A DNA stretch of 64,000 nt, from positions 1-64,000 of the forward strand of contig NZ_BMIK01000001.1 of the NCBI RefSeq assembly GCF_014642075.1, written 5' to 3'. Below, one piece after another: positions 143-47,957 of the stretch. The translations under genes and the position numbers were made by a program. How positions within the stretch are numbered: position 1 is the first letter of the stretch; every line of letters begins with the position of its first letter. Under the pieces are notes generated by a model. That model saw only the letters and a program-made list of their open reading frames with translations. It searched no databases and had not been told where the DNA came from. Origin of the DNA: Parapedobacter defluvii. Lineage in GTDB: Bacteria; Bacteroidota; Bacteroidia; Sphingobacteriales; Sphingobacteriaceae.

Positions 143-158
143 TTTTTGTTTACAAAAA
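143..158. promoter_or_regulatory. Candidate GntR/FCD operator 1
   Basis: TTTTTGTTTACAAAAA is a 16-base inverted repeat with one mismatched pair at its centre. The word TTTTGTTTACA recurs at 247-257, and as TTTTGTATACA at 1065-1075. Position about 125 bases before the regulator's ATG fits autoregulation. The link to the regulator is inferred from proximity. Confidence 0.5.
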
Positions 159-246
159 TATACTAATGGGATGTGAGATACTATCCCTGTCTCTGGGGGC
201 GCACGTTCCATTAGCGGAATATTTAATTTCAAAATTCTATATTTGC

Positions 247-260
247 TTTTGTTTACATTT
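247..260. promoter_or_regulatory. Candidate GntR/FCD operator 2 (half-conserved)
   Basis: TTTTGTTTACATTT shares its first 11 bases with the site at 143-158 but its right arm is degenerate. It starts directly after the -7 box at 238-245, so a bound repressor would cover the transcription start of the regulator gene. Confidence 0.4.
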
Positions 261-269
261 TTAATTCGT

Positions 270-908
270 ATGAAAGAAGATTCGCTTTCTGATAAGGTAT
301 ATACTGAAATCCGAGGAAAGATTTTGTCAAACCAATTGGCGCCGGGAAGCAGGCTTAAAGAAGATGTTTGGGCAAAAAAGATGGAGGTGAGCCGCGTGGC
401 TGTGCGGGAGGCACTAAACCGCTTGTTAGGTGAGGCGATGTTGGAGAAGGGTGAACGTGGAGGATATTTTGTCAAGTCTATGAATATGGACGATATCCGA
501 GAAATCCGGGAACTCAGGGAGGTGCTTGAGCTCGGTGCCTTGCAGATGGCGTGTGAAAAGCTGGAAGAAAATGATATTCGGGAATTAGAAAAGATTTGCA
601 ACGATTTCACTAATATGGTGAAAAGTGGTTATTTCGGCGGTGCCTGCGAGGCTGACGTCAAGTTTCATGAAACCTTGATAAATACGGCACGAAATCAGAA
701 GCTCAAAGTCATTTATATTTCCAGCAACATACCGTTATTTCATTTCAAACTCGGGCGTTCCAGCAGTCACATGGATGATTACGAGCAGACCGATAAAGAA
801 CATCGGGAAATTTTGGCAGCACTAAGGCGCAGGGATTTTGAGAGTGCCAAAGCCGTTTTGGTAGCGCACCTGCGCAGAGGCGAGCTTGAATCGTTGGACG
901 TTGGATAG
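270..908 (+). CDS. GntR-family regulator, FadR-type (FCD domain)
   Basis: DNA-binding regulator, probably controlling the adjacent sugar-acid/SusCD operon. Residues about 5-70 form a winged helix-turn-helix with the family pattern of SRVAVREALNRL followed by GGYFV. Residues about 80-205 are an all-helical FCD domain; the DxxxH pair in DVKFHE plus later histidines in LFHFKL and KEHREIL fit the metal/ligand site of that subfamily, whose ligands are often organic acids such as uronates or aldonates. The ATG at 270 is preferred over an upstream TTG at 243 because the -7 box ends at 245 and family members begin just before the first helix. The product is 212 residues, normal for the family. The ligand is unknown; an intermediate of the downstream pathway is the natural guess. 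Confidence 0.9.
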   Translation: MKEDSLSDKVYTEIRGKILSNQLAPGSRLKEDVWAKKMEVSRVAVREALNRLLGEAMLEKGERGGYFVKSMNMDDIREIRELREVLELGALQMACEKLEENDIRELEKICNDFTNMVKSGYFGGACEADVKFHETLINTARNQKLKVIYISSNIPLFHFKLGRSSSHMDDYEQTDKEHREILAALRRRDFESAKAVLVAHLRRGELESLDVG

Positions 909-992: not shown

Positions 993-1064
993 TGGCCGCT
1001 TTTGTGTTGACCTCAACTAAATAAAAAAATCAAATATTTTTGTTTGTATATAAAAATTGTTCAT

Positions 1065-1078
1065 TTTTGTATACAAAA
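1065..1078. promoter_or_regulatory. Candidate GntR/FCD operator 3 upstream of susC (perfect palindrome)
   Basis: TTTTGTATACAAAA is a perfect 14-base palindrome ending 10 bases before the susC ATG at 1089. A weak promoter, TTTG (1039-1042) with a 19-base spacer to CATTTTTG (1062-1069; 7 of 8 to TAnnTTTG), overlaps it, so binding would block initiation. It shares TTTTGTwTACA with the two sites before the regulator. Confidence 0.55.
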
Positions 1079-1088
1079 TAATCCGATT

Positions 1089-4000: not shown

Positions 4001-4205
4001 TCGGCTTAAATCCGTGGAACTTGGCTATACACTTCCCGAAGTCTTGTCTAAGAAGATTTATTTAAATAACCTGAGGGTATACCTTTCAGGCACCAACTTG
4101 GCCAATTGGAGCAAATTTAAGCTGTGGGACGTAGAAATGGGAAGCGAAGGGTTGGGGTATCCTTTACAGCAAGTATATAACCTGGGCGTGCAAGTTGGAT
4201 TTTAG
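1089..4205 (+). CDS. SusC/RagA-type TonB-dependent outer-membrane transporter (PUL1)
   Basis: Outer-membrane importer for an oligosaccharide or glycoconjugate, working with the SusD lipoprotein encoded next. From the ATG at 1089 (chosen over a TTG at 1044 because it opens a clean signal peptide MKRKTYFVIYHRLL...LSAQ) the protein has 1038 residues, usual for SusC. A carboxypeptidase-regulatory-like domain spans about 30-105, followed by the plug and a 22-strand barrel. The SusC/RagA signature DATATALYGARGANG and the following ILVTTK are intact, and the chain ends in the usual aromatic residue (VGF). It is the first gene of a run of 12 co-directional genes and has the candidate GntR operator in its promoter. 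Substrate is unknown. Confidence 0.95.
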   Translation: MKRKTYFVIYHRLLVMCCCLLIPWVLSAQESREVTGLITDSLQMPMQGVTISVKSRSTLATSSDVNGRFILSAPKDAILVFSLIGYRTVEHPAQHADPLSIVMYPDVSMLEDVVVVAYGTQKKKEVVGSVTSINPSELKVPSSNLTTALAGRLAGVIAYQRSGEPGQDNANFFIRGVTTFGYKKDPLILIDGVELSTTELARLQPDDIASFSIMKDATATALYGARGANGVILVTTKEGKVENAKFSFRYENSFSAPTKNVELVDPVTYMRMENEAVTTRNPLEITPYLESKIDNTEAGMDPLAFPTTDWRRELFKDYAHNQRMNFSLTGGGAVAQYYLAGTYNQDNGVLKVDGRNNFNNNIRLNSYALRSNVSINVTKTTEVGVRLYGTFDDYTGPIYGGAEMYRMVMRANPVLFPAYYPTTESYKYVQHIMFGGSLQGNSLNPYAEMVKGYKDYSKSLMLAQLEMKQNLAFVTEGLTFRGMLNTNRESYFDVTRAYAPFYYGLAGFDRQSNVYTLEAINPNSGTEYLGYEEGPKIVRTNLYAELALNYNRTFGDKHGLSGLLVYNMRNFLEGNASSLLKSLPYRNMGLSGRATYAYDDRYFAEFNFGYNGSERFYVDNRFGFFPSAGVAWSVSNEKFWGGMSDVVPRLKLRATYGLVGNDAIGSAEDRFFYLSTVDMNNATRGATFGTNFNYTQSGVLVSRYDNRLITWETATKANFGLEFSLWNKVDVQADYFTEYRKNILMDRASIPVTMGLSAPVRANVGEASGKGVDFSVDFNHTFSNGFWLVSRGNFTYATSRFEVVEEPEYNEPNLSKRGYSLSQQWGYIAERLFIDAADVANSPTQNFGIYEAGDIKYRDVNGDGIISTLDQVPIGYPTDPEIIYGFGFSAGFKGLDFSCFLQGSAYSSFWINQNGSTSPFVNNNQVLKAYADSYWSEENRNIYAVLPRLSKTLNGNNNQLSTWFMRDGSFLRLKSVELGYTLPEVLSKKIYLNNLRVYLSGTNLANWSKFKLWDVEMGSEGLGYPLQQVYNLGVQVGF

Positions 4206-4343: not shown

Positions 4344-6230
4344 ATGAAAAGTATAAAAACCTTAATCGTTATCCCGTTGTTTCTGGTGTCGTCGTGCACC
4401 TACCTGGATGTGGTGCCGGATAATGTGGCAACGGTAGATAATGCGTTTACCATGCGGAACACCGCTGAGAAGTACCTGTTCACCTGTTACTCTTACTTAC
4501 CTAAAACGGGAAATCATATCTATGACCCAGCAGTGCTGGGAGCAGATGAAATGTGGTCGATCCGGGAAAACTGGGCGTCGCTGTCGGTTGTCCGCGGATT
4601 CCAGAACGTCGTAAATCCCTTTTTTGACTATTGGGTTGGCTATGAGGGCGGGATTCCGTTGTTCCACGGTATACGAGATTGTAATATCTTTCTTGCCAAT
4701 ATCCATAAGGTACAGGAATTGACGGAATTGGAACGAAGGCGATGGATCGCGGAGGCGAAATTTCTAAAAGCCTACTACCACTATTTTCTGCTCCGTATGT
4801 ATGGCCCCATACCGATCGTCCGGGAAAGCCTACCGATTTCTGCGGGCATAGAGGAAGTAAAAGTGTACCGGGAACCCATAGAAGAGTGCATGGCCTATAT
4901 CCTGCAATTGCTGGATGAAGCAGTAGTGGATTTGCCCGAGCGGATTGAGGCTGAAGAAACAGAATTGGGCCGGATAACCCAGGTAATTTGTTTAGCGGTC
5001 AAAGCCCAAGCGCTGACCCTGAATGCCAGTCCGTTGTTTAACGGAAATCCGGATTATGCATCTTTTACCGATAATCGGGGGGTACAGCTATTTACGGCGA
5101 CCTATGATCATGAAAAATGGTTGTTGGCTGCCGAAGCGCTCAAAAAGGCTATCGACTTGGCGCATAGCGTAGGCAATAAATTATATTATTACAGCGAAAA
5201 TGATCCGAATGGGGCGATGGTTTCGGAACGCACCAACCTAACAATGAATATTCGGGGTGCAGTAACAGCCAAGTGGAATCCCGAAATGATCTGGGCAAAC
5301 CCCAATGATTTGGTCACCAGCCAGCAGGCTGAAGCCCAGGCCCGGCTTGACGGCAATACGCCCGGTCTAGCCAGTACCAGCGGCATACTGGCACCGACCC
5401 TGCGGATGGCAGAATTTTTTTACTCAAAAAACGGGGTGCCTATCGAAGAAGATAAATCCTGGCGTTACGACGACCGATATGCATTACGGAGGGCAACTGC
5501 CGAAGACATCCACTACATCCAGGAAGGATATGAAACCGTGGAGTTGCATTTTGACCGGGAGCCCCGGTTTTATGGAAGTCTTGCCTTTGATGGTGCGATT
5601 TGGTATGGGCAGGGCCGGAAATCAGAGACGAACAACTGGTATGTACAGGCTAAACTTGGGCAGTATTCGGGAGGAAAGCCCTCAAACGGGTATTCCTCCA
5701 CGGGTTACTGGCCAAAAAAGCTAGTAAACGCAGACAATGTATACTCGGCAACGAATAATTATACCATCGTTCCTTATCCGTCGCCGATTATCCGGCTCGC
5801 GGATTTATACCTGATGTACGCGGAGGTGCTTAACGAATATTACGGCCCCACGGAAGAGGCTTATCACTACATCGACTTGGTCCGGGCCCGGGCGGGTCTG
5901 GGGGCGGTGGCGGAATCGTGGCGGTTGCATTCATCCGAACCCGAAAAACCGAGCACCCAAGAAGGGCTGCGTGAGATCATCCATCAGGAAAGGGGAATAG
6001 AGCTGGCGTTTGAAGGCGTCCGGTTTTGGGATGTACGCCGATGGAAGAAGGCTATTCAGGAATTCAACCAACAGGTCAAAGGGTGGAACCTGCTTCAGGA
6101 AACAGCCGAGGAATATTACATCCCGACCGTATTGCATTCCCGTCAATATCAATTGAAAAATTACTTCTGGCCCATCCGGGAACACGATCTTATTGTAAAT
6201 AAAAATCTGGTGCAGAATCCCGGATGGTAG
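4344..6230 (+). CDS. SusD/RagB-family surface glycan-binding lipoprotein (PUL1)
   Basis: Cell-surface lipoprotein that caps the SusC barrel and binds the incoming ligand. The signal peptide ends in a lipobox VSSC with C18 as the lipidated residue. The SusD N-terminal helical (TPR-like) region includes the typical RRWIAEAKFLKAYYHYFLLRMYGPIP stretch (shown here in part: AKFLKAYYHYFLLRMYG), and the C-terminal part has RLADLYLMYAEVLNEY and ERGIELAFEGVRFWDVRRW, both family hallmarks. Length 628 is at the high end for SusD. It is separated from susC by a 138-base gap holding the stem element and overlaps the next gene's possible upstream start, so translation is probably coupled. Ligand unknown. 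Confidence 0.94.
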   Translation: MKSIKTLIVIPLFLVSSCTYLDVVPDNVATVDNAFTMRNTAEKYLFTCYSYLPKTGNHIYDPAVLGADEMWSIRENWASLSVVRGFQNVVNPFFDYWVGYEGGIPLFHGIRDCNIFLANIHKVQELTELERRRWIAEAKFLKAYYHYFLLRMYGPIPIVRESLPISAGIEEVKVYREPIEECMAYILQLLDEAVVDLPERIEAEETELGRITQVICLAVKAQALTLNASPLFNGNPDYASFTDNRGVQLFTATYDHEKWLLAAEALKKAIDLAHSVGNKLYYYSENDPNGAMVSERTNLTMNIRGAVTAKWNPEMIWANPNDLVTSQQAEAQARLDGNTPGLASTSGILAPTLRMAEFFYSKNGVPIEEDKSWRYDDRYALRRATAEDIHYIQEGYETVELHFDREPRFYGSLAFDGAIWYGQGRKSETNNWYVQAKLGQYSGGKPSNGYSSTGYWPKKLVNADNVYSATNNYTIVPYPSPIIRLADLYLMYAEVLNEYYGPTEEAYHYIDLVRARAGLGAVAESWRLHSSEPEKPSTQEGLREIIHQERGIELAFEGVRFWDVRRWKKAIQEFNQQVKGWNLLQETAEEYYIPTVLHSRQYQLKNYFWPIREHDLIVNKNLVQNPGW

Positions 6231-6250
6231 CTCGACAAAAAAATAAACAG

Positions 6251-7426
6251 ATGAAACGCTTCAAACAACTCATATATTTAAGTATCGGCCTTTCTTCGCT
6301 ACTGGCTTGCAAGGAAGAGGTGCCGACTGCACTTACGGATGATGGTAATGCCCCCGGTAAAGTGTCTAATGTGACCGTCGAAAATCGGAACGGTGGTGCC
6401 AAGCTGACCTATTCGTTGCCCAACGATGCCAACCTACTTTATGTCAAGGCCGTGTATGAATATCCAGCGGGAAATGTCAAAGAGGTGCGGGCATCGGCCT
6501 ATGTGGATAGTTTGGTTATTGAGGGGATTGGCGATACCAAAGAACTGGATATTTCGTTGTTTTCCGTTAGCCGTTCCGAAAAGGTTTCGGAATCGGTTCA
6601 AGTTACCATCGTACCGATGACGCCGCCCGTCCAATTGGTCGCCACGTCATTAGAAGTAGGTTCGGAATTCGGTGGGATTTCCATTCATTTTCTCAACGAG
6701 CGGCGTCAAGATATCATCATCGAAATTTTGAAGAAAGTCGCCAATGACTGGACGAATCTCGATGCTTATTATACGAATAGTAAGGAAGGCTTGTTCACGA
6801 TTAGGGGACAGGAGGCAACATCCACGGAGTTCGGCTTGTACGTCCGGGATAAATGGAAGAATAAGTCGGATACGCTTGTGGTCGAATTGACTCCCTTATA
6901 TGAGGTGCAATTGCCATCGCCTACACCGGTCACGATCCTGCCAAATGATTATAACCAACACTATGCAGGACTAAACTATACCTATATGTTCGATGAAATT
7001 GTATCCGAAGGGAATTACATGGGAACTTTGTTGACGGAAAACTCCAATCTACCCCTGTCTTTCACACTTGATTTCGGAAGCCCCGTGAAATTTAGTCGCT
7101 TCCGGTATTGGATGCGCCAAGGCGATGCCCATATTTATAATTATGCAACTCCCGAAACATGGGAAGTGTGGGGATCGAATGAGTTGACGGCCGATTGGGA
7201 TAATTGGACAAAGATTATGGATTGCAGAGCTGTCAAACCGTCTGGACCTGGCACACCGTTGACGACCGAGGACCGGGAATTGGCCGCCCGGGGTCTTGAT
7301 TTCCCTTTCCCGGCAGGAACCGAACCTTATCGGTATATCCGATGGAAAACAACAAAAACTTTTGGTGCATTGAATGCGGTGCAAATTTCGGAACTGGCTT
7401 TTTATGGAGGTAGTAATGAAGAATAA
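6251..7426 (+). CDS. DUF4959/DUF5126/DUF5000-type surface lipoprotein
   Basis: Predicted surface-exposed glycan-binding lipoprotein. I chose the ATG at 6251 over the one at 6224 because it starts a lipoprotein signal peptide (MKRFKQLIYLSIGLSSLLAC, C20) followed by acidic KEE. Residues about 35-120 look like the fibronectin-like DUF4959 domain (PGKVSNVTVENRNGGAKLTYSLP), then a DUF5126-like middle domain, and from about 225 a galactose-binding-like DUF5000/discoidin fold with SFTLDFGSPVKFSRFRYW and ending in AVQISELAFYG. In Bacteroidota these proteins follow susD and replace SusE/SusF. Family assignment comes from recognised sequence patterns; the ligand is not known. Confidence 0.85.
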   Translation: MKRFKQLIYLSIGLSSLLACKEEVPTALTDDGNAPGKVSNVTVENRNGGAKLTYSLPNDANLLYVKAVYEYPAGNVKEVRASAYVDSLVIEGIGDTKELDISLFSVSRSEKVSESVQVTIVPMTPPVQLVATSLEVGSEFGGISIHFLNERRQDIIIEILKKVANDWTNLDAYYTNSKEGLFTIRGQEATSTEFGLYVRDKWKNKSDTLVVELTPLYEVQLPSPTPVTILPNDYNQHYAGLNYTYMFDEIVSEGNYMGTLLTENSNLPLSFTLDFGSPVKFSRFRYWMRQGDAHIYNYATPETWEVWGSNELTADWDNWTKIMDCRAVKPSGPGTPLTTEDRELAARGLDFPFPAGTEPYRYIRWKTTKTFGALNAVQISELAFYGGSNEE

Positions 7427-8657
7427 AAAAATTACAGGTATCCTCACTGGAACAAAGCGGGGCCTGGCGATGCTAGTTATAGTAACTGTATATGGACTAT
7501 CGTCCTGTAAGAAGATGGATGCCACATATCGGGATTATGTAAAAGGAGGAGAAATCGTCTATGTCAGCAAAGCAGATTCCGTCAAAATCTATCCGGGAAA
7601 CAACCGGATGTTGCTGACATGGTGGAAAGGAACCGATCCCAAAGTATCGTTGGCCCGCGTTTTTGGTGAGGATGGACAGTTGCTCAAAGAACAGCAGGTT
7701 GGAAAAGGAGTCATTGGACAATGGCAGGAAGTCTTATTGGAGGATATGCCGGAGGGCACCTATTCGCTGGACGTGGTCACCGTGGATGATAACGGTAATA
7801 CCTCAATCAAGGTGACGGTGCCCGGTATCTCCTATGGACCGAGATATGAAGCTTCGTTACAGACGCGGCGACTTGAACAGGCGGTGTATCTAAATGGAAA
7901 TGCCTATGTCAACTGGCGCGGACCAACCCCCGATGCGATTGCAACGGAAATTGTCTATGAGGATATAGATGGCCGGGAAATCACCGTGCGAACACCCGCC
8001 GGTGAAAACCAGACAGCGCTTGAGAAGTTTAAGAGCAGGACGCGATTTAAATACCGGACGTTATTTAAGCCAGCCAGCACGTCAATCGACACTTTTTATT
8101 CGGAGTATGTGGATGTCGAGCTGGAATACCTTTTGGATAAAGCTAAATTCAAACGATGGAATACAGCCGATTTTCCGTACACGGAATACGAAATGGGCAG
8201 TATATACAATATCGAACGGTTGTGGGACGAAGTATATACCGAATATGGGTACATTTACCTGGAAACCGAACCGTTACCGCGGAGCTTTACCTTCGATCTG
8301 GGGCAGCTTGCCCGTATTGAGCGTATCCGATTAAGCCCAAATTGGAGCTCGCAGTTATATAAAAATGGCAACATCAAGAAGGCCGAAATATGGGGGTCTG
8401 CGACGCCCGATGTGTCGGCTGACTTTTCGACCTGGACCTATTTGGGTACACTGGAGTCGTTCAAACCTTCCGGGCTCCCGTTGGGTGAATCCACGCCGGC
8501 AGACCTGGCGTACGCTCAGGCAGGTGAGAATTTCCAATTGGTGGATGATGCGCCTCCAATACGTTATATTCGTTTCGTTGTGCAAGAAACATGGTCGGGA
8601 TCCATTTCCATGCATATTACCGAGCTCACATTTTGGGGCGATGTGATTGAACCCTGA
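7416..8657 (+). CDS. DUF4998-type lipoprotein with C-terminal discoidin-like domain
   Basis: Second surface lipoprotein of PUL1. The ATG at 7416 overlaps the end of the previous gene by 11 bases and has a good GGAGG site, so the two are translationally coupled. The signal peptide ends in GLSSC (C31). The middle part (about 45-210) resembles DUF4998: VKIYPGNNRMLLTWWKGTDP and YSLDVVTVDDNGN. The last 150 residues (RSFTFDLGQLARIERIRL, HITELTFWG) form the same discoidin-like DUF5000 fold as the preceding protein, so the two lipoproteins probably bind related glycan features. 413 residues. Ligand unknown. Confidence 0.82.
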   Translation: MKNKKITGILTGTKRGLAMLVIVTVYGLSSCKKMDATYRDYVKGGEIVYVSKADSVKIYPGNNRMLLTWWKGTDPKVSLARVFGEDGQLLKEQQVGKGVIGQWQEVLLEDMPEGTYSLDVVTVDDNGNTSIKVTVPGISYGPRYEASLQTRRLEQAVYLNGNAYVNWRGPTPDAIATEIVYEDIDGREITVRTPAGENQTALEKFKSRTRFKYRTLFKPASTSIDTFYSEYVDVELEYLLDKAKFKRWNTADFPYTEYEMGSIYNIERLWDEVYTEYGYIYLETEPLPRSFTFDLGQLARIERIRLSPNWSSQLYKNGNIKKAEIWGSATPDVSADFSTWTYLGTLESFKPSGLPLGESTPADLAYAQAGENFQLVDDAPPIRYIRFVVQETWSGSISMHITELTFWGDVIEP

Positions 8658-8693: not shown

Positions 8694-9986
8694 ATGAAAA
8701 TGAACGACAAGATGGATGCAGTAAATCAGCCATCAGCATTTACTTCGGACAACGCACACTCGAGAAGACGCTTTTTGCAAGCTCTTGGTGTTGGGGCGGC
8801 CGCAATAGGGCTGCAACAGATCAGCTGCTCGGGAACCAAGCAGGTAGCACAAGCCAATACCGGAAGTGGAGTTATCGACCTCACTTCCATTCCGGGTTTT
8901 GAAAAGACAACCGCGGACCCGCGCGCTTCGGAAGGGTGGCAGTCGATTTCCGATCGTAAAATCAAAGTCGGACTGGTGGGACACGGTGTTTGTAAATTTG
9001 CCGTGCAATTCGGCTTTCAGGATCATCCGAATGTGGAAGTGGTGGCTGTGAGTGACCTTTTTCCGGACCGCCTTGCCGAAATGGCTAAAATCGCGCGTTG
9101 CGACCGGACCTACCCATCGCTGGAGGAAATGCTGAAAAAGGATAAAGACATCGAGGCGGTATTTTTAGCAACCGATGCTCCCAGCCATGCCCAGCATGCA
9201 ATTATGGCACTAAATCGCGGCTTGCACGTAGCTTGTGCGGTACCGGCGGTATGGGGGTCATTGGAGGATGCTGATAAACTGTATGAAGCCTGGAAAAAAA
9301 GCGGGAAGAAATACATGATGTTTGAGACTTCCGCGTATCACGAAGATGTCCACGTCATGCGTGAATTGTATAAACGTGATTTTTTCGGAAAGATCGTCTA
9401 TTCGGAGGGAGAGTATTATCATTATTTCGGTACTCCGCTGGATGGCTATCGGAATTGGCGGAACGGCTTGGTGCCTCAATGGTATCCAACACATTCCAAT
9501 GGTTATTATGTCTGTGTGACCGGCCAGCGGTTTATGGAAGTTTCTTGTTTGGGGGTACCAAGTATCCTTGAGCAATTCCAACCGCAGAATAATGTGTACA
9601 AGAATCCGTTTGGAACCGAAATAGCCACATTCCGTACAAGCGAAAATGGAATTTCGAGGATGGCTGTAAGTTGGGATACCGCCGGTTTCGGGGCCGAAGC
9701 GGGCCGGATCAGGGGTGAAAAAGGATCCTATTACAACAATCAATTTCAGGGGCTGACGGATCAGGTGCCGGCCATCAAGCGTCCGCCACTTCCACCGGGC
9801 GTTGATGCCGGTGGTCACGGCGGAGCCCATGGTCACTTAACCAATGAGTTCGTCACGGCTGTTATTCAAGATCGGGCACCTTTGGTGGATTTGCCCATTG
9901 CGCTTAACCTGACGGTATCCGGAATCGTTGCGCACCAGTCTGCGTTGAAAGGTGGAGAATGGATGAAAATACCACAATATCGATAA
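8694..9986 (+). CDS. Tat-exported Gfo/Idh/MocA-family protein with CAVP in place of EKP
   Basis: NAD(P)-binding protein predicted to act in the periplasm. A twin-arginine signal (SRRRFLQ, residues 23-29) precedes a hydrophobic stretch; Tat export suits a protein that folds around its cofactor in the cytoplasm. The Rossmann motif GLVGHG lies at 93-98. The family's usual EKP tripeptide, whose lysine is catalytic in many members, is replaced by CAVP (181-184). The C-terminal half has the Gfo/Idh alpha/beta domain. A cytosolic paralogue at 16380-17504 shares the same substitution. NAD-dependent glycosidases of this superfamily (GH109-like) also depart from EKP, so glycosidase, oxidoreductase and epimerase activities are all possible. 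Confidence 0.85.
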   Translation: MKMNDKMDAVNQPSAFTSDNAHSRRRFLQALGVGAAAIGLQQISCSGTKQVAQANTGSGVIDLTSIPGFEKTTADPRASEGWQSISDRKIKVGLVGHGVCKFAVQFGFQDHPNVEVVAVSDLFPDRLAEMAKIARCDRTYPSLEEMLKKDKDIEAVFLATDAPSHAQHAIMALNRGLHVACAVPAVWGSLEDADKLYEAWKKSGKKYMMFETSAYHEDVHVMRELYKRDFFGKIVYSEGEYYHYFGTPLDGYRNWRNGLVPQWYPTHSNGYYVCVTGQRFMEVSCLGVPSILEQFQPQNNVYKNPFGTEIATFRTSENGISRMAVSWDTAGFGAEAGRIRGEKGSYYNNQFQGLTDQVPAIKRPPLPPGVDAGGHGGAHGHLTNEFVTAVIQDRAPLVDLPIALNLTVSGIVAHQSALKGGEWMKIPQYR

Positions 9987-10059
9987 TTAGTGCAAGTTAC
10001 CAAACGGTGGATCATTTCAATTAATAGGGTCCAGTCAACGGATCCAAAGGGAGCATACT

Positions 10060-11415
10060 ATGATAAATAATTGGCCGAAATCGGCAGAAACAACGAAGAA
10101 TAACGAAAAATGGATTCCCGGGGGGGTGGTGTCACTGAACCGGAAAGCAGAGCCTAACATCTGCTTTGCGAAAGGATTAGGAAGCCGGGTATGGGACATT
10201 GAAGGGCGGGAATACATTGACTACCAAGCGGGATTTGCTGCTGCTTTCCTTGGGCACAACGACCCGGATGTCAACGCAGCTGTAGCGGATTCAATCCGGG
10301 AAAATTTAGTGTTGATGGGAGCCGGTCCAACGAACCTTGAAGGAGAGTTTGCAAAGTTGTTCTGCGCGAGCGTCCCAACGGTCGAGAAAATACAGATTAC
10401 AACAACTGGATCTGAGGCTACCTACCATGCTATCCGGATTGCACGCGCAGCAACGGGAAAGACGCATGTCATCATTATGCAAGGCGGGTATAATGGCTGG
10501 CATAACGATGTTGCAGGCAACGTGATCAGCAATTTGGAGGATGTAGGGGAACGGGTGTCGCCGGGAGAGTATCCCTTCGATCCGCTTTCGGCGGGAATTC
10601 CCGCGGAACACCGTTCGCTGATCCATGTGGTCAACTACAACGACTTGGAATCCGTCAACTACATCGTTAAGCGTTTCCCGGTAGCATGTATTCTTTTGGA
10701 ACCTGTTCTCCAAAACATTGGCATTGTAAAGCCATTGCCCGGATACCTGGAAGGCTTGCGGGAGTTGGCGGATGAACAGGGCTTCCTGTTGATATTCGAC
10801 GAGGTGAAAACTGGTTTCCGCCATGCATTGGGAGGATACCAAAGCATTTGCAAGGTAACACCGGATTTAAGTACTTTTGGAAAAGCCGTTGCCAACGGTT
10901 ATCCATTCGGGGTCATTGGGGGCAAGGCCAAATACATGGATTATTTTGTGCATCCGTCCCGGGATAAACGGGTGCTGATAGCGGGAACATTTAATGCGCA
11001 TCCCATGACCACCGTTGCGGCCATTGCTACACTACGCAAACTTTCTTCTCCAACGTTTGGCGTGTATGAACATGTAAACAAACTTGGGCGTATGTTGGAA
11101 ACGGGGTTGAATGACATTTTCTCGGATTTTGACAAGCCGTTTTACGTGGCTCGGCAGGGGTCTGCATTCTGTGTGTATTTCATGGATCACGCCCCGGTAG
11201 ATTACCATGACTTGGCATCAAATCATGACTTCGCCTTCGACAGATCCTACCGCATGCAGCTCATCGAAGCAGGTATCTTCAATTTTCCGCTTCCGATAAA
11301 GCAAGGCAGTATCTCGTATGCGCATTCGGTATCCGACATTGAAGAAACACTCGAGAAGACCAAGAAGGTAGTAGGTAAATTAATCGAAAAACAAAAGGTA
11401 GCGACAACAATTTAG
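10060..11415 (+). CDS. Class III PLP aminotransferase, glutamate-1-semialdehyde aminomutase-like
   Basis: PLP enzyme that either removes or moves an amino group. Seen: the phosphate-binding GSEA (117-120) followed by [13 protein letters not shown], the YNGWHN loop, the cofactor aspartate in FDEVKTGFR (D247), and the Schiff-base lysine in [12 protein letters not shown] (K275). The overall pattern is closest to HemL-like aminomutases, but its place inside a catabolic operon makes a haem role unlikely. It has a good AAAGGGAG site before the ATG. A neighbouring amidohydrolase could supply a free amine as substrate. Length 451 is normal. Substrate and direction are inferred only. Confidence 0.88.
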
Positions 11416-11429
11416 GTACGAGCGAACCG

Positions 11430-12608
11430 ATGAAAATCACGTCTATAGAAACGCATGTCTGCAATGCACGGATGCGCAATTGGATATTTGTAAAGGTGGT
11501 AACGGACCAGCCGGGGCTGTGGGGATGGGGAGAGGCAACGCTTGAATGGCATACCCGTGCCGTGGTTGGTGCGGTTGAAGACATTTCCCAGCTTCTTGTC
11601 GGGGAGGATCCCCGCCGCATCGAGCACCTGTGGCAGATGATGTACCGTCAGCATTTTTGGCACGGCAACGGTGTGGTGCGTGGCACGGCCATCAGCGGGA
11701 TCGACATCGCCCTATGGGATATCCTTGGGAAGATTCACGGCGTACCCTGCCACGAGCTTTGGGGCGGGCGGGTACGGGACTACATCCGGCTATACTGCCA
11801 TTTGGGTGGGGGTAGAATGGAAGACTTCTACCAAACCAGACCCGATGATGCCAAACGTTTCGGCGAACTGGCCCTGCAGGCGGTTGAAGAAGGATTCACA
11901 GCGTTCAAGTCGATGGCTGTCCCCGAAACGATGCCGCTGGAAGGGCTTGTTCCGATCCGGTATGCCGAGGCGTGTGTCAGATCCATGCGCGAGGCAGTAG
12001 GCGATAACATTGATATTATGGTGGATTGCCACGCACGGCCCAGCCCGCTTATGGGGATGCAATTTGCGAAAGCATTGGAACCCTATGGCCTGTATTTTTT
12101 CGAGGAACCTTGTTGGCCGGAGACGATGGATGACCTGGCGCTGATTCAGCGGGCAGTTGCCACTCCGATTGCCAGTGGCGAGCGGTTGATCACCGTGCAT
12201 GCCTTCCGTGAATTGCTTGAAAAACGCGCCGTTAGTGTGATCCAGCCGGATATTACGCATTGCGGAGGATTGAGCGAAGTCCGGAAGATTGCGGCAATGG
12301 CGGAGGCCTATCGGGTGGCGGTTGCCCCACATAACCCGCAGGGCCCGGTCAGTACAGCCGCGTCCATTGAGTTCGGTTTCGCCACTCCGATGTATAGCAT
12401 TTGTGAAAGTGTGCATCAAGATGTCCCTTGGCGGGAAGATGTAGTGAGTGAAGGTTTCTCGGTCGAGCGGAAAGGCCGTATTGTACGCCCGAGTACCCGG
12501 CCCGGATTAGGTATTGAAATCGATGAAAATGAAATCAAAAAACATCCGTTCGAACAGGAAGTGCTGCAGCGGACGTTTTATAAAGACGGCAGTGTAGGCG
12601 ATTGGTAA
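11430..12608 (+). CDS. Enolase-superfamily sugar-acid dehydratase (galactonate dehydratase-like)
   Basis: Likely removes water from an aldonate to give a 2-keto-3-deoxy sugar acid. Metal ligands and catalytic residues typical of the D-galactonate dehydratase branch of the mandelate racemase subgroup are visible: D199-C-H201 (DCHAR), E225 in FFEEP, E251 in SGER, and H301 in APHNPQGP. The N-terminal capping domain is complete ([22 protein letters not shown]). 392 residues, normal. It lies 14 bases after the aminotransferase gene. In D-galactonate dehydratase the D-x-H motif reads DFHGR, so the exact substrate here may differ. Confidence 0.88.
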
Positions 12609-12621
12609 ACACAATACATCG

Positions 12622-13389
12622 ATGAACAAAAACTTAAAATACCAAACCGCAGCCATTACCGGTGGTTTGGGAGACATTGGCAAAGCTATTTGCCTGGCGT
12701 TTGCACGGAATGGCACCTCCATTGCCTTGTGCGATATCCGACCGTCCGAAGAGGCGGCTGCCTTCCTTTCGTTATTGGGCGATAGTTGCGGGGTCGAATG
12801 CACGTACCACCAGGTGGATGTAGCCGATCCGAACCAGGTGAAAAGTTGGCTGGGAGTTGTTTCAGGCCAATTGGGGATCCCAAACGTGGTTGTTGCCAAT
12901 GCCGCGCGGGTTACGCTTGCGCCTGCGCTGGAAATTACGCCGGAACAATGGAATCAGGAAATCAACGTGAATTTGAACGGTGCTTTTTACATGATCCAGG
13001 AAGCGGCACGCCTCATGGTTAATGGGGGCATTCCCGGCCACATGGTACTCATCGGCAGTTGGGCTGCACATCAGGTGCACCTGGACATGCCCGCTTACAG
13101 CGTAGCCAAGGCGGCTTTGCGCATGCTCTGTAAATGCATGGCGTTGGAATTGGCTCCAAAGGGGATTTTGGTTAACGAAGTTGCCCCCGGTTATGTACAG
13201 GCTGGCCTGAGTGGAAAGATCTGGAAGGAACGGCCGGATTTGTGCGAACAGGCTGCTGCCAGGGTGCCTACCGGGAATTTCATCAGCCCCGAAGCGGTAG
13301 CTGAAGAAGTGCTGCACCTGTGCCGTCCGGAAAACAGGAACATCACCGGATCGACGTTGCTGATGGATGGGGGATTGTCATTATCTTAA
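12622..13389 (+). CDS. Short-chain dehydrogenase/reductase
   Basis: NAD(P)-dependent SDR, cytosolic. The cofactor glycines are in TGGLGDIG (13-20), the NAA motif is at 93-95, and the catalytic set is S146, Y159 and K163 (YSVAK). 255 residues, standard classical SDR. Next to the dehydratase it could oxidise or reduce a 2-keto-3-deoxy acid, as SDRs do in the non-phosphorylating L-fucose and L-rhamnose routes; that is inference from context. Start codon follows the dehydratase stop by 13 bases. Confidence 0.9.
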   Translation: MNKNLKYQTAAITGGLGDIGKAICLAFARNGTSIALCDIRPSEEAAAFLSLLGDSCGVECTYHQVDVADPNQVKSWLGVVSGQLGIPNVVVANAARVTLAPALEITPEQWNQEINVNLNGAFYMIQEAARLMVNGGIPGHMVLIGSWAAHQVHLDMPAYSVAKAALRMLCKCMALELAPKGILVNEVAPGYVQAGLSGKIWKERPDLCEQAAARVPTGNFISPEAVAEEVLHLCRPENRNITGSTLLMDGGLSLS

Positions 13390-13397
13390 AATCGTAC

Positions 13398-14780
13398 ATG
13401 GGAACACGCTACGGAAACGAAACCGCGAATACAGCTTTTTTTGGATTAATCGGGGTTTCACGGCGGGAAATCAATCCGCCATTGGGTATCTATGCGCGCA
13501 ACTGGGGCGCAGGTTCAACCGATATTTCCGTTGGTTTTCACCGGCCGTTGACGCTTACCTGCTTGACCTTCCAGACGTATGCCGGAGAGCAGCCGCTGGT
13601 ACTGATCGGGGCCGATTTGGGTTGGTGGAAAAGCGCGGCGGACGAACTGAAATTGCGGAAAGGCATTCTCGATTCACTGGGGCTGGAGGAATCCCGGTTG
13701 ATGTTTTGCCTATCCCATACCCATGCAGGCCCCAGTTTGTCTACTGCCGATGCGGACAAACCGGGTGGTGAGTGGGTTGAACCTTATCTTGGCCAGTTGA
13801 AGGAAAAGGCGGTCGATGCCGTTCTGGAAGCACTTAACGCGGCTGCTTTGTCGACGTTGGAATGGCGATACGGAACCTGTGACCTGGCGACGAATCGTGA
13901 CTTGCCAATTGAACAGGAACGACGCGTAGTGGTCGGTTTTAATCCAACGGCGGAAGCAGACGATACGCTGCTCATCGGGCGGGTCACGGATGCCGATGGA
14001 AATGTGACGGCTACCCTGGTGAACTATGCATGCCATCCCACGACACTGGCGTGGGACAATCGGCTCCTGTCCCCGGATTACGTGGGCGCCATGCGCGAAT
14101 TGGTTGAAAGCCGCACCGGTGGTTTGGTGCTGTTCCTGCAGGGTGCTTCCGGCGAGTTGGCACCGGCGGAGCAATACGTAGGTGACACCGAAGTAGCGGA
14201 CGCACACGGACGTCGGCTGGGTTACGCCGTACTTGCAACGTTAGAAGGCATGGGAAACAAAGAAACCATATTGAACTACAGCCACGTGGTGGAGTCGGGT
14301 GCGTCATTGGCCGTATGGAACCGGCGGAAGATGGCCCCTTCGGCGCAGATAGCAGCCGTACGATCGCAGGTAGCTATGCGGTTGAAAGATATGCCCACTT
14401 TATCTGAAATCGAAGCTCAGTGGTTGGCCTGTACAGATCTGGTACTGAAAGAACGATTGTGGCGGAAGAAAGAGATCCGGAAAACGGTGGGTGAAGGGGA
14501 TACTTCCGCCATGCCCCTGTGGGTGTGGCGTATCGGGAATGCCTGTTTGGTGGGGCAGCCCAATGAGGCGTATTCCGGTTATCAGCAATCGGTACGTGCC
14601 GCATGTGCTCCGGTGCCAGTCTCGGTGATCAATATTGTCAATGGCTATGCGGGTTACCTTCCTCCCGAAGACCGGTATGGTGACGACATGTATGCCGTTT
14701 GGCAAACTCCTTTTGCTGCCGGCGCGCTGGAGCAACTGGAGAAACAGACCATCGATCTATTGAAGCAGATTTTAAGTTAA
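13398..14780 (+). CDS. Neutral/alkaline ceramidase-like amidohydrolase, cytosolic and single-domain
   Basis: Predicted Zn-dependent amide hydrolase. From the ATG at 13398, just after the SDR stop at 13389, the protein has 460 residues and no signal peptide; an in-frame upstream start at 13320 would overlap the SDR gene. Family features are present: INPPLG near the N-terminus, SHTHAGP (H107/H109), NYACHPTTL (H213), QGASGELAP (248-256), E390 in QPNEAYSGY and the tyrosines of NGYAGY. These match the Zn-ligand positions of bacterial neutral ceramidase. It is much shorter than true ceramidases and lacks their C-terminal domain. Inside a sugar-acid operon it more likely cleaves an N-acyl amino sugar or similar amide than ceramide. 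Confidence 0.8.
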   Translation: MGTRYGNETANTAFFGLIGVSRREINPPLGIYARNWGAGSTDISVGFHRPLTLTCLTFQTYAGEQPLVLIGADLGWWKSAADELKLRKGILDSLGLEESRLMFCLSHTHAGPSLSTADADKPGGEWVEPYLGQLKEKAVDAVLEALNAAALSTLEWRYGTCDLATNRDLPIEQERRVVVGFNPTAEADDTLLIGRVTDADGNVTATLVNYACHPTTLAWDNRLLSPDYVGAMRELVESRTGGLVLFLQGASGELAPAEQYVGDTEVADAHGRRLGYAVLATLEGMGNKETILNYSHVVESGASLAVWNRRKMAPSAQIAAVRSQVAMRLKDMPTLSEIEAQWLACTDLVLKERLWRKKEIRKTVGEGDTSAMPLWVWRIGNACLVGQPNEAYSGYQQSVRAACAPVPVSVINIVNGYAGYLPPEDRYGDDMYAVWQTPFAAGALEQLEKQTIDLLKQILS

Positions 14781-14792
14781 CTTTTTGACCCA

Positions 14793-16364
14793 ATGGTTTC
14801 TAATTTTACAACACTTGATATGTTAATATTTGCGGTCTACTTGCTGGGGATCGTAGGCCTTGGTGTGTTTGCCTCTCGCAAAGGCAAGGATACCAATCGA
14901 GATTATTTTTTGGCGGGCGATAAGCTTCCCTGGTGGATGGTGGGAGGGAGTATTATTGCTGCAAATATCAGCAGCCACCAACTTGTGGGTGTAATGGGGG
15001 TGGCATATGACCGTGGGTTTGTGGCAATGGTGGTGGAGTGGGGCGCTATTCTGATTGGTTTTAATGCGTTGTTATGGATTTTTCTTCCTTTTTATTTGCG
15101 CAATGGCTTTTACACTATGCCAGAATTTTTGCAGCGGCGATTTGGGGCGACATCGAAGACCATTTATGCACTGTTGGTATTGCTTACCTATATTTTTGTC
15201 GAGATCAGTGCCGTACTTTATCTCGGTGCGCTTTCGCTTCATGCATTGCTGGGCATCCCAATGTCTACAAGTGTAATCGCTCTTGCAGTGGCTACGGGAG
15301 TCTATACCGTTTTGGGAGGCCTTAGGGCTGTTATCTGGACGGAAATGGTGCAACTGGGCGTATTGATTCTGGGTATGATTGCGCTTTCTTTTACAACCAT
15401 TGACGCTGCGGGCGGGTTTTCGGCGGTGCTCGAAACTACAAAAGATTGGAAATTGATGATGCCAGCAGACGATCCGGATTTTCCGTGGACAATGTACTTG
15501 GGAGGGTTGTTATGTATCAGTGTGTTCTATAACGCGACGAATCAATTCATCGTGCAACGGACGCTGGCGGCAAAAAACGAATGGCATGCGCGGATGGGCG
15601 TGATTTTCGGTGATTATCTCAAATTTCTATTGCCGTTTTTAATTATTTTTCCTGCATTGGTAGCTCCTAAGTTGTTTCCCGATCTGGAGAAACCAGATTT
15701 GCTTTTCGCGATGTTGGTAGAACACTTGCTTCCCACGGGGCTGGTTGGGCTTGTGATGGCGGGGTTGATTGCGGCGGTCATGTCACATCTGTCCGGGGCA
15801 ATCAATTCATGTACCACGATCTTGACGATGGATGTTTATTTGCCTTATATCCGCCCGAAAGCAACCGAAAAAGATTCCGTTCAATTTGGGAGGTTGTCTG
15901 GGATGGTGGTAATTGTATTGGGGATTGTATGCACGGGTTTATTGGCATTATATTCTGAGAAGCCGATATTTATCTATTTGATGAATGCATATGGCTATTT
16001 TACACCGGGTATTGCCACAATGTTTTTATTGGGGATTTTGTGGAAACGGACAACGCATGCCGGTGCGATTTCTGCAGGGTTGCTTACCGTTCCGCTTTCG
16101 CTTGCACTCGAATTTGCCTTTCCCGAAATGTCGTTTTTCAATCGTACAGGTATCGTGTTTTGGAGCTGTATGGCCGTTTGTGCACTAATCAGTTTCGTGA
16201 CGAAACCGAAAACGGATGCGGAGTTGACTGGCCTTATTTGGAACAAAAGCAGTTTATCGCTACGCCCCGAGGAACGGGTCCAGCAACGGGGGCTACGAAA
16301 TCCGTTTATCTGGTGGGCGCTGATTACGGTGGTTGTGTTATTCTTTTATGTCAAATTTGCTTAA
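14793..16364 (+). CDS. Sodium:solute symporter (SSS family), PUL1
   Basis: Inner-membrane Na+-coupled importer that would carry the periplasmic product of this locus into the cytosol. It has 523 residues and about 13-14 hydrophobic helices. Family marks include the N-terminal DYFLAGDKLPWWMVGGSI, the helix with ISSHQLVGV, and GLIAAVMSHLSGAINS, which resembles the Na+ site region of SGLT-type carriers. It sits 12 bases after the amidohydrolase gene. The neighbouring cytosolic enzymes suggest the cargo is a mono- or disaccharide-like acid or amide. Confidence 0.9.
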   Translation: MVSNFTTLDMLIFAVYLLGIVGLGVFASRKGKDTNRDYFLAGDKLPWWMVGGSIIAANISSHQLVGVMGVAYDRGFVAMVVEWGAILIGFNALLWIFLPFYLRNGFYTMPEFLQRRFGATSKTIYALLVLLTYIFVEISAVLYLGALSLHALLGIPMSTSVIALAVATGVYTVLGGLRAVIWTEMVQLGVLILGMIALSFTTIDAAGGFSAVLETTKDWKLMMPADDPDFPWTMYLGGLLCISVFYNATNQFIVQRTLAAKNEWHARMGVIFGDYLKFLLPFLIIFPALVAPKLFPDLEKPDLLFAMLVEHLLPTGLVGLVMAGLIAAVMSHLSGAINSCTTILTMDVYLPYIRPKATEKDSVQFGRLSGMVVIVLGIVCTGLLALYSEKPIFIYLMNAYGYFTPGIATMFLLGILWKRTTHAGAISAGLLTVPLSLALEFAFPEMSFFNRTGIVFWSCMAVCALISFVTKPKTDAELTGLIWNKSSLSLRPEERVQQRGLRNPFIWWALITVVVLFFYVKFA

Positions 16365-16379
16365 TACGATAAGGAACAG

Positions 16380-17504
16380 ATGCAGGTTAACGATCAGATA
16401 CGTATCGGGGTAGTGGGAGGGGGATTCGGTACCAGCTTTTATTTTCACCTTCACCCTCACAGTAAGGTAGAAGCCGTGGCGGCAATGTTACCCGAAGAGC
16501 GGGTTAGGCTACAGTCGACTTATGCGTGTTCAAAAGTCTATGGGTCACTGACCGAGCTGCTTAAAGATCCGTGCGTAGATGCGGTTGCGCTATTTACTCC
16601 CGCGCCGCTGCATGCACAGCATTCCGTGGAAGCACTTCATGCAGGAAAACACGTAATGTGTGCGGTCCCAGTGGGATTGAGTGTCGAAGAGTGCGCGATG
16701 GTAAAAGAAGCGGTCCGGCAAACTGGACTTACCTACATGATGGCCGAAACAAGTGTCTACCGGCAGGACACAATCTCTGCCAAACAGTTTTTCCGCGATG
16801 GTTTATTCGGTGAGCTGATGGCAGCGGAAGCAACCTACCACCATCCGGGATTGGAAGACTATTTTTTTGATGCGATGGGAAAACCTACCTGGAGACATGG
16901 GCTGCCACCGATGCTATACGGTACCCACTGCACTTCCTTTTTGATTGGGGTTACCGGTGAGCGCTTGGCATCCGTAAACTGCATCGGTTGGGGGGATGAT
17001 AGCGCGCTGTTGAAAGGGAATCGGTATAACAACCCTTTCTGGAATGAAACGGCCTTGTTCAAGAGCGAACGGGGAATTGCGTTTCGCGTAAATATCAGTT
17101 GGAAAGGTGCGTTGCTTCCAACGGAGCGATGCGAATGGCATGGAGAAAAAATGAGCTTTTACAGTAAAGACCCCCGGGGTGTGGACGCTTTGGTGGTGAA
17201 GAGAACCCGGGCCATAGGGGCCGATGATGCAGGATTCCTTACCCATGAGCCATCCGTTGAATCTTACCGGCAACCGCTGTGGTGGCAAACTGAACTGTTA
17301 CCTGAATCCCTTCGGATAGATAGCGGGCACTACGGATCCCATACGTTTATCACCCACGAATTTGTGAACGCTTTGATTCAGGGACGTGAGCCTGAGGTGG
17401 GAATCGAAGAAGCCATTGCTTATACCCTGCCGGGCATTGTAGCCCATGACTCAGCGTTGAGGGGTGGAGAGAGTTTAGCAGTTCCTACTTTTGACCAATT
17501 ATAA
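16380..17504 (+). CDS. Cytosolic Gfo/Idh/MocA-family protein with CAVP in place of EKP
   Basis: Paralogue of the Tat-exported protein at 8694-9986 but without a signal peptide. Rossmann motif GVVGGGFG at 10-17. The catalytic EKP site reads CAVP (94-97), as in the exported copy, and the two also share HAQH before it, METS/FETS after it, GVTG/CVTG and a closing DSALRGGE/QSALKGGE motif. 374 residues. Possible roles: sugar dehydrogenase feeding the lactonase encoded next, epimerase, or NAD-dependent glycosidase. The pair suggests related chemistry on both sides of the inner membrane. Confidence 0.85.
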   Translation: MQVNDQIRIGVVGGGFGTSFYFHLHPHSKVEAVAAMLPEERVRLQSTYACSKVYGSLTELLKDPCVDAVALFTPAPLHAQHSVEALHAGKHVMCAVPVGLSVEECAMVKEAVRQTGLTYMMAETSVYRQDTISAKQFFRDGLFGELMAAEATYHHPGLEDYFFDAMGKPTWRHGLPPMLYGTHCTSFLIGVTGERLASVNCIGWGDDSALLKGNRYNNPFWNETALFKSERGIAFRVNISWKGALLPTERCEWHGEKMSFYSKDPRGVDALVVKRTRAIGADDAGFLTHEPSVESYRQPLWWQTELLPESLRIDSGHYGSHTFITHEFVNALIQGREPEVGIEEAIAYTLPGIVAHDSALRGGESLAVPTFDQL

Positions 17505-17513
17505 CCATGGGGC

Positions 17514-18431
17514 ATGGGAAATCTCGAAAACAAATGGCAAATAGCCGTTCCGGTTGCCTGTACGCTCGGCGAAGGCCCCATTTGGGAATCGCATTTGAAT
17601 CGACTGCTTTGGGTGGATATTTTAGAGGGGGTGATCCATGAATGGTATCCGGATTCAGGCATTCACCGGGCAAACCAATTTCCGTTTAAGATAGGAGCCA
17701 TCGTATTTAACGCCGACGGCGCGATAATCGCCGCAACGGACCAGGGCTTTGTCTGGATCGACTTGGATACAAAAAAGACGGAAGTGATTGCCAACCCCGA
17801 GGCAGACCTCCCGGACAATCGCTTCAATGACGGAAAGTGCGACGTTATGGGAAGATTTTGGGCGGGTACGATGGATGGCATAAACGGCCAACCTGGAGCA
17901 GGCAAACTGTACATGTTAGATCACGACGGCAGCGTTGATGTAAAAATCGATCCGGTTAGCTGCTCAAATGGATTGGCGTGGAATCATGACAACAGCGTAT
18001 TTTATTACATTGACACACCATCCCGACAAGTTGTTGCGTTCGATTTTGAGGCGGAAAACGGTGGGATTACCAACAGCAGGACAGCCATCCAGATTCCTGA
18101 AACCGAAGGCTTGCCCGACGGCATGGCTATTGACAAAGAGGGAATGCTTTGGACCGCATTGTGGGGAGGAGGTAAGGTGGCCAGGTGGAATCCCCAAACG
18201 GGAGAGAAAATAGGGGAAATCCCACTTCCCGTCACCCAGGTAACCTCCTGTGCTTTTGGTGGGAAAGACCTGAACGACCTGTACATCACGTCGGCCAAGG
18301 TCAATTTGGATGCTGACAGCTTAGCAAATCAACCGTATGCCGGTTGTTTGTTTGTCGTCAAAGAATTATTTATCAGCGGATATGAGCCGCATCGCTTTTT
18401 AGCAAAAAGAAAGGCCAATCGATCGCATTAG
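17514..18431 (+). CDS. SMP-30/gluconolactonase-family lactonase
   Basis: Six-bladed beta-propeller hydrolase that opens sugar lactones using a divalent metal. Seen: GEGPIWE near the N-terminus (metal Glu), PDNRFNDGKCDVMGRFWAGTMD, SNGLAWNHDN, and LPDGMAIDKEGMLWTALWGG, which together supply the usual Glu-Asn-Asn-Asp metal set. 305 residues, standard, cytosolic. As the last gene of PUL1, 9 bases after the Gfo/Idh gene, it fits hydrolysis of a lactone made by sugar oxidation upstream of the dehydratase. Its 3' end overlaps, on the opposite strand, a relic of an ABC permease gene. Confidence 0.9.
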   Translation: MGNLENKWQIAVPVACTLGEGPIWESHLNRLLWVDILEGVIHEWYPDSGIHRANQFPFKIGAIVFNADGAIIAATDQGFVWIDLDTKKTEVIANPEADLPDNRFNDGKCDVMGRFWAGTMDGINGQPGAGKLYMLDHDGSVDVKIDPVSCSNGLAWNHDNSVFYYIDTPSRQVVAFDFEAENGGITNSRTAIQIPETEGLPDGMAIDKEGMLWTALWGGGKVARWNPQTGEKIGEIPLPVTQVTSCAFGGKDLNDLYITSAKVNLDADSLANQPYAGCLFVVKELFISGYEPHRFLAKRKANRSH

Positions 18432-36795: not shown

Positions 36796-36839
36796 TTTTC
36801 GTAACATTTGAGTAGTACTAACGCAAATGGTAGCATAAA

Positions 36840-36869: not shown

Positions 36870-36959
36870 CCATTAAATGCCGCCCGGGGCTTTCACGGGT
36901 TTCGGTCGCCCGCATTATGGTCCCGGCGATGTCGTGTTTTACAAACCTTGTTTCGCTTT

Positions 36960-47891: not shown

Positions 47892-47957
47892 ACAGGTAAC
47901 CGATCGTAGCGAATGATGAGCTATGGGGCCATTCTATAAATAGAAGTGATAGAAAAG

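Follow-up and report, generated by a model that had tools for sequence, protein, structure and literature searches.

A ceramidase-like hydrolase in the conserved core of a SusCD operon of Parapedobacter defluvii: a possible phosphorylation-free route for N-acylated amino-sugar acids

What substrate could call for sugar-acid enzymes, an amide hydrolase and a pyridoxal 5'-phosphate (PLP) enzyme in one run of genes? The question is raised by a stretch of 64,000 nucleotides, referred to here as the window, which forms the start of contig 1 (NZ_BMIK01000001.1, positions 1 to 64,000) in the 5.8 Mb genome of Parapedobacter defluvii (GCF_014642075.1). A sequence-only reading of this DNA had listed eight genes in one co-directional run, and all of the open reading frames (ORFs) and families are present at the place described, from GfoA to SMP-30 on the + strand at 8694-18431. 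The run makes up the latter half of a SusCD operon, which begins upstream of GfoA with a GntR/FCD regulator, SusC, SusD and two DUF-domain genes, all likewise on the + strand; downstream of SMP-30 the strand switches. The extent proposed by that reading was therefore right as to its genes but cut too short, since SusC/SusD, the regulator and a conserved operator upstream had been missed. We propose that this GntR-regulated operon quite possibly breaks down an N-acylated amino-sugar acid without prior phosphorylation. What the sequence itself shows is a conserved core whose genes co-occur, an operator motif common to its loci and the retention of catalytic residues, and it is from these that we infer a substrate and an order of steps.

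The surroundings of CerL, the ceramidase-like hydrolase, were compared in 11 named loci and in further genomes, with two loci (L047 and L083) dropped because L046 and L082 already represent their genomes. Five genes stand out, encoding AT3, a class III PLP aminotransferase (PF00202; 10060..11415) resembling glutamate-1-semialdehyde aminomutase (GSAM); a DgoD-like aldonate dehydratase of the enolase superfamily (PRK14017; 11430..12608); a short-chain dehydrogenase/reductase or SDR (PF13561/PF00106; 12622..13389); CerL itself, a short, cytosolic neutral-ceramidase-like hydrolase with a profile match to 2zws (13398..14780); and a sodium:solute symporter of the SSS family (PF00474 and TIGR00813 above cut-off; 14793..16364). 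When the same gene set was sought in other genomes, as had been suggested as a check, 40 of the 44 other distinct loci had this core as a contiguous, single-strand run with its gene order unchanged, which argues that the set is not a chance assembly. The four exceptions are L051, whose set is split in genome G159, L074, in which the symporter match falls in two pieces, and L077 and L078, which have a divergent arrangement. In the window the six intergenic gaps from AT3 through SMP-30 measure 8-15 bases, if the CerL start is taken as the Met at 13398 (the mechanical ORF begins at a GTG at 13320), and across loci the median gaps between core neighbours are -4 to 12 bases with mechanical ORF starts.

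Co-occurrence is equally tight. CerL is found in 33 of 301 genomes of the family, and these 33 are also precisely the ones that carry AT3 at an identity of at least 69%, while both are found in the same three of 395 genomes of the phylum, the genome of the window being counted in each case. An extra AT3 relative (54%; L119:120-1463) lies beside SusCD on a short contig of G220, a genome with no CerL match. In G159, CerL, the symporter and SMP-30 are located at 2.85 Mb and AT3, the dehydratase and the SDR at 3.99 Mb, each half-locus with its own GntR gene, and the retention of both halves argues for a shared function of the set. Among the named relatives scanned, Parapedobacter pyrenivorans (L046) stands closest, with a hydrolase of 75% identity. 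SMP-30 and the Gfo/Idh proteins had been treated as constant parts of the system; as each occurs in only 5/44 other loci, we regard SMP-30 and GfoA/GfoB as accessories. An M20 amidohydrolase is present in 18/44. AT3, the dehydratase, the SDR, CerL and the symporter thus very probably form a functional module.

A profile built from 12 CerL proteins matches neutral ceramidase 2zws (E 6.1e-16), and CerL scores 14.8 bits against PF04734, which is below the Pfam gathering score of 32.1. As earlier noted, the zinc-ligand positions are kept: His108, His214, Glu391 and Tyr421 (numbered from a Tyr at 13395, one higher than from the true Met) are present in 47/47 rows, opposite the ligands that we take to be His97, His204, Glu411 and Tyr448 in 2zws numbering; the alignments used here, of 46 or 47 rows, include two rows repeating genomes. 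His110, Arg168 and Tyr433, at positions with roles in the active site of neutral ceramidase, are kept in 47/47 rows as well. The Ser of the ceramidase LSP motif, presumably catalytic, is replaced by Ala256 in 41/47 rows, the window included, and is Ser in six. The description of CerL as shortened and cytosolic is also borne out, with 460 residues compared to 646 in 2zws and an N-terminus that reads as having neither a hydrophobic stretch nor a signal peptide. The AlphaFold model of CerL has a mean predicted local distance difference test score of 74.5 and a predicted template modelling score of 0.82, with 75/461 residues below 50 on the former.

We know of no substrate for most ceramidase-like bacterial proteins, and this genome encodes five of them beyond CerL. 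Three are PF04734 proteins near MurQ-like genes, two in L149 (7145-15570), a stretch that also holds an N-acylglucosamine-2-epimerase (AGE)-like gene, and one in L151 (7830-10569). In L147:8207-15465 (G000, C1 255-275 kb) a PF04734 protein without a signal peptide immediately precedes a gene resembling fold-type III D-amino-acid deaminases, and RidA and a GSAM-like gene lie close by. We liken this arrangement to OngB/OngC/OngD of the Ong pathway, discussed below, and count it as an amino-sugar context for the ceramidase fold; L147 is a possible second Ong-like set with a ceramidase-like deacylase. No such neighbour was recognised for the fifth protein, in L152.

The nearest kin of AT3 among solved structures is GSAM. 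AT3 scores 297.2 bits against hemL, below the curated score of 527.3, and a separate hemL in the genome scores 561.7. The PLP residues are retained, with Lys275 in 46/46 rows, and Arg28 (46/46 rows) corresponds to the SPVR-motif arginine of GSAM. The Glu and Trp of the genome's own hemL are replaced in AT3 by Lys414 and Phe59 (46/46 rows). The Glu position has a role of its own in GSAM, and in class III transaminases a positive residue at this position binds the alpha-carboxylate, such that Lys414 suggests AT3 to be a transaminase. As for the Trp position, the relevant part of PMC4909244 reports that Trp68 of GSAM contacts Lys274. Identity of AT3 with true HemL was considered and rejected, given the missed hemL cut-off, the replacement of both the Glu and the Trp and the presence of another hemL.

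The dehydratase passes the cut-off of PRK14017 (D-galactonate dehydratase; 334.6 bits compared to 311) and fails that of L-rhamnonate dehydratase (140.1 compared to 393), and no L-fuconate model is among the hits listed for it. The likeness to L-fucose and L-rhamnose routes suggested by the sequence-only reading is therefore not supported. Residues at the positions that carry the catalytic and metal-binding roles in DgoD are found in 46/46 rows, in register with a paralog in the genome. At least 95% of the 46 SDR rows likewise carry Ser146, Tyr159 and Lys163.

Family scans revealed no aldolase or kinase among the families of the operon proteins, in agreement with what had been stated for the window, and kinase-like and aldolase-like genes lie elsewhere in the genome. 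One such group is a sugar-kinase/Eda-type pair, neither member of which reaches its curated cut-off; in another, a gene with a strong DgoD match adjoins an Eda-type aldolase. The third gene of that strong-DgoD cluster gave no family-scan match at 1e-20, and from its sequence we read it as a putative DgoK-type kinase. In relatives the aldolase of the regulon belongs to the dihydrodipicolinate synthase (DHDPS) family and is present in 32/35 CerL genomes compared to 5/35 others, the 35 comparison genomes being hand-chosen and not random. An Nramp-epimerase-aldolase trio (c12-c20-c21) also occurs apart from the core (L129, L131-L137), and in L132, L133, L135 and L136 it is near genes that by eye read like NagA and/or NagB.

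GfoA (PF01408; 8694..9986) has the Gfo/Idh fold with a twin-arginine (Tat-like) N-terminus, GfoB (PF01408; 16380..17504) has the same fold without a signal peptide, and next to it is the accessory SMP-30/gluconolactonase-like lactonase (PF08450, 286.2 bits; 17514..18431). Typical Gfo/Idh dehydrogenases carry their catalytic Lys in an EKP motif, and AVP stands at this place in 12/12 GfoA/GfoB ORFs (10 distinct proteins). As the usual catalytic Lys is absent, the two are doubtful as dehydrogenases, and the ordinary dehydrogenase role that had been assumed for them is not supported. Accessory Gfo/Idh proteins of other loci read DKP where resolved (17/26 for c7 and 6/7 for c25; the motif pattern left 9/26 c7, 1/7 c25, 3/3 c33 and 2/2 c43 unresolved). 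Structures of GH109 are among the matches of GfoA and GfoB, and one GH109-type protein (L084:2537-3922) reads EVP and carries PF21252, the GH109 C-terminal domain, which was not found in GfoA or GfoB. From its sequence GfoA is a possible NAD-dependent glycosidase.

In relatives a different enzyme may take this place. A PL21-like lyase is encoded in 28/35 CerL genomes and in 0/35 of the hand-chosen others; its member in L071 matches PL21 structure 2fuq (E 6.2e-100) with the residues that act in PL21 catalysis in register by eye, and the lyase misses the cut-off of the heparinase HepB model (419.8 compared to 600). At E <= 1e-60 it is absent from all three CerL genomes covered by the search within the window genus (G000, G068 and G093, including the window genome). 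GfoA/GfoB (6/45 loci) and the lyase (27/45) never occur together in a locus (P 0.0023; relatedness is ignored in this value and in the Fisher values for these loci), which leads us to suggest that they are alternative front ends to the core. A weaker relative of the lyase, of 45% identity, is encoded elsewhere in G074, a genome with GfoA.

The upstream half of the operon would link the core to glycan import. It comprises the GntR/FCD transcription regulator (243..908, likely Met 270; PF07729 and PF00392 above cut-off), an ortholog of which is found in 34/44 other loci; a SusC-type TonB-dependent outer-membrane importer (1044..4205, likely Met 1089; PF07715 Plug and PF13715); a SusD-type surface binding lipoprotein (4344..6230; PF07980 and PF14322); and two probable surface lipoproteins, one with DUF4959-DUF5126-DUF5000 domains and an N-terminus that by eye is lipobox-like (6224..7426), the other with DUF4998-DUF5000 domains and likewise judged by eye from its N-terminus (7374..8657). 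A predicted GntR operator, TTTGTTTACAAA, lies 5' of the regulator gene at 145..156 as an exact match, and a second, the perfect palindrome TTTGTATACAAA, is located just 5' of the SusC Met at 1066..1077 and is the sole TTTGTATACAAA in the genome. The palindrome TTTGTWTACAAA has six sites in the whole genome, two of them at GntR and SusC, and the same pattern read backwards, as a control, has one match. The site at 38055 falls within a GH88-like coding region and is likely due to chance; of the three remaining distant sites, one is near where a ribosomal-operon gene begins, and no connection is apparent for the other two.

Similar operators are present in relatives. TGTWTACA-type sites are found within 320 bases upstream of AT3 in 27/43 loci, a count that includes L047 and L083; as some of the upstream regions counted were those that had first drawn attention to the operator, this count and the 16-fold density of sites are descriptive. 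Such sites precede SusC in 7/7 Chitinophaga loci, where two are always 23 bases apart, and in the two genomes examined for this (G207 and G270) a site is placed between SusC and a PQQ dehydrogenase-Nramp-epimerase-aldolase operon, in their divergent promoter. None was seen in the examined stretches of L046, L047, L049, L082 and L083, and core-less stretches (L129-L137) have 0 to 3 sites each. Scans for promoters and terminators found no excess over shuffled sequence (22 compared to 25.9 and 23 compared to 23.2, respectively). We consider that the co-directional set is probably co-regulated, and that the module and regulon are well supported.

For the chemistry served by this module there is a precedent. 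In the Ong pathway of Pseudoalteromonas prydzensis ACAM 620, which handles oxidised chitin and GlcNAc-onate, the parts of PMC9537276 that describe it report TonB-dependent importers, uptake of N-acetylglucosaminate by an SSS symporter, deacetylation, and then deamination by a PLP enzyme to 2-keto-3-deoxygluconate (KDG), with phosphorylation only afterwards. By comparison, SusCD would import a glycan fragment holding an N-acylated amino sugar, and a front end would free that sugar, here perhaps GfoA/GfoB and in relatives the PL21-like lyase or a beta-helix enzyme. Oxidation at C1 would give a lactone for SMP-30 to open, and the Na+ symporter would carry the sugar or acid into the cytosol. There CerL would strip the N-acyl group to leave a 2-amino-2-deoxy-aldonate (a D-configured alpha-amino acid), which AT3 would convert by transamination to a 2-keto-aldonate, the SDR would reduce this to an aldonate and the DgoD-like enzyme would dehydrate it to KDG or the galactose-type equivalent KDGal. 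Finally, an aldolase would release pyruvate and a triose, using the DHDPS-family enzyme in the regulon of relatives and enzymes encoded elsewhere in this genome. The exact order of these steps is tentative. The substrate itself we judge, on balance, to be an N-acylated amino sugar or its acid, the likeliest entry among those that had been listed, with uronamides and aminocyclitols being less likely. In outline, the earlier idea of an oxidative sugar-acid type of catabolism, to which an amide hydrolase and a PLP enzyme have been joined, is supported.

Several observations weigh against such a pathway. The separate DgoD-like gene in the genome scores 695.3 bits and the operon dehydratase is only 36% identical to it, so that the substrate of the latter may be related but not the same, and plain D-galactonate may not be its substrate. 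We know of no class III transaminase acting on 2-amino-aldonates, and the GSAM-like Arg28 (46/46) would also be compatible with an amine at a position more distant along the chain. None of the genes of the window operon encodes a C1 dehydrogenase that has the canonical catalytic Lys, the DHDPS-family aldolase of the regulon was not found in this genome at E <= 1e-30, and the model of CerL is middling, being weak at active-site segments 163-186, 214-220 and 253-260. Moreover, the presence of a PL21-like lyase in relatives might indicate that it is the uronic-acid part which the core processes.

In one rival scheme the amine lies further from the acid group, for example in a 4-amino-4-deoxy sugar, and the dehydratase acts before AT3. 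Deacylation followed by dehydration would lead to a 2-keto-3-deoxy-4-amino acid, the SDR would oxidise it at C5 and the substrate of AT3 would then be an alpha-amino ketone, by analogy with the chemistry of glutamate-1-semialdehyde. Such chemistry would fit the substrate shape of GSAM, the nearest solved-structure kin of AT3, and the arginine at the SPVR position; however, the Lys and Phe at the GSAM Glu and Trp positions (46/46) suggest a transaminase, and a rare amino sugar is not indicated by the gene context. Because of the Lys414 result and the Ong precedent we rank this scheme lower, and consider it unlikely. The lyase points in another direction, to a uronic acid linked by an amide to an amino acid or amine (a uronamide), which CerL or the M20 hydrolase of relatives would cut and whose amine AT3 would consume. 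The distribution of the lyase among CerL genomes and of the M20 amidohydrolase among the loci is consistent with this, but the lyase is missing from the CerL genomes of the window genus searched, and the heparin-like glycans cut by PL21 enzymes that have been characterised contain N-substituted glucosamine too. We would call a uronamide slightly less likely again.

Two further explanations dispense with amino-sugar acids altogether. One is an ordinary non-phosphorylating oxidative route of the D-galactose, L-fucose or L-rhamnose type, for which the DgoD-like dehydratase, the SDR and SMP-30 are all in place, and to which the hydrolase and aminotransferase would be side genes. Yet it is these two that belong to the constant core, and SMP-30 and the Gfo proteins that do not; in addition the motif with the catalytic Lys is missing from both GfoA and GfoB, a better DgoD match is present elsewhere in the genome and the rhamnonate dehydratase cut-off is missed, making this route improbable. 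The other is degradation of lipid amides, with CerL as a true ceramidase and AT3 acting on a long-chain amine. The complete set of ceramidase zinc ligands together with Arg168, Tyr433 and His110 would agree with it, but the PF04734 score, the change of Ser to Ala, the missing signal peptide and the reduced length do not, and CerL is surrounded by sugar-acid enzymes and SusCD. A true ceramidase identity is disfavoured by the missed Pfam cut-off, the mostly replaced Ser and the absent signal peptide, and we regard lipid degradation as very improbable.

Two other gene groups in the window are worth recording. At 47946-51782 there is a row of genes for a NamZ exo-N-acetylmuramidase, in which both Pfam domains are found, a MurQ-like protein with a GKRP/SIS domain and a second protein resembling an SSS symporter, which judging by these families is probably a set for N-acetylmuramic acid recycling. 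At 35338-38183 a GH29 fucosidase (+ strand) and a GH88-like protein (- strand) adjoin another SusCD pair.

If our reading of an N-acylated amino-sugar acid substrate is true, amino-sugar deacylation could be assigned to some bacterial proteins now annotated as ceramidase-like, and it would explain how an amino-sugar glycan could be used by species of Pedobacter, Chitinophaga and Parapedobacter, several in all. Should the proposed chemistry be correct, a transaminase route exists for the degradation of amino-sugar acids; listings of an open-access library searched for this gene set or pathway showed no such route. In any event, the core offers a tight and testable setting for one ceramidase-like subfamily.

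CerL has the zinc-ligand set and further active-site residues of the neutral ceramidases (PF04734; 2zws), but falls below the Pfam cut-off, is about 190 residues shorter, lacks a signal peptide and mostly has Ala for Ser. AT3 shares PLP residues and Arg28 with GSAM/HemL, its nearest sequence family, whereas Lys414/Phe59 and the missed hemL cut-off set it apart. GfoA/GfoB resemble the GH109 NAD-dependent glycosidases in their Gfo/Idh fold and in having no Lys at the EKP position, but have no PF21252 match and read AVP rather than the EVP of the one GH109-type relative. The dehydratase shares family and catalytic residues with DgoD of the D-galactonate (De Ley-Doudoroff) pathway, to which the operon adds an amide hydrolase, a transaminase and an SDR.

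The closest comparison is with the Ong pathway, as far as the parts of PMC9537276 that describe it allow. TonB-dependent import, an SSS symporter, a cytosolic amide hydrolase, a PLP enzyme and a transcription regulator are common to both, and a KDG-type product without a first phosphorylation would be expected here too, the operon being known from its sequence and its substrate by inference. Those parts do not mention the present gene set. In contrast to Ong, the deacylase is ceramidase-like and not D-aminoacylase-like (OngB), and the 13 operon proteins include no amidohydrolase family of the OngB deacetylase type; the PLP enzyme is of class III transaminase type and not a fold-type III deaminase (OngC), which is not in the cluster, AT3 (PF00202) being its only PLP enzyme. 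The operon furthermore adds the SDR, the DgoD-like dehydratase, SusCD and GntR, and has no kdgK. CerL would thus stand in place of OngB, and AT3, SDR and DgoD-like dehydratase together in place of OngC, such that on this analysis the operon appears to work like the Ong pathway and not to be a member of it. More speculatively, it may represent a second, enzymatically unrelated phosphorylation-free route for N-acetyl amino-sugar acids, built as a plug-in core with interchangeable glycan-cutting front ends.

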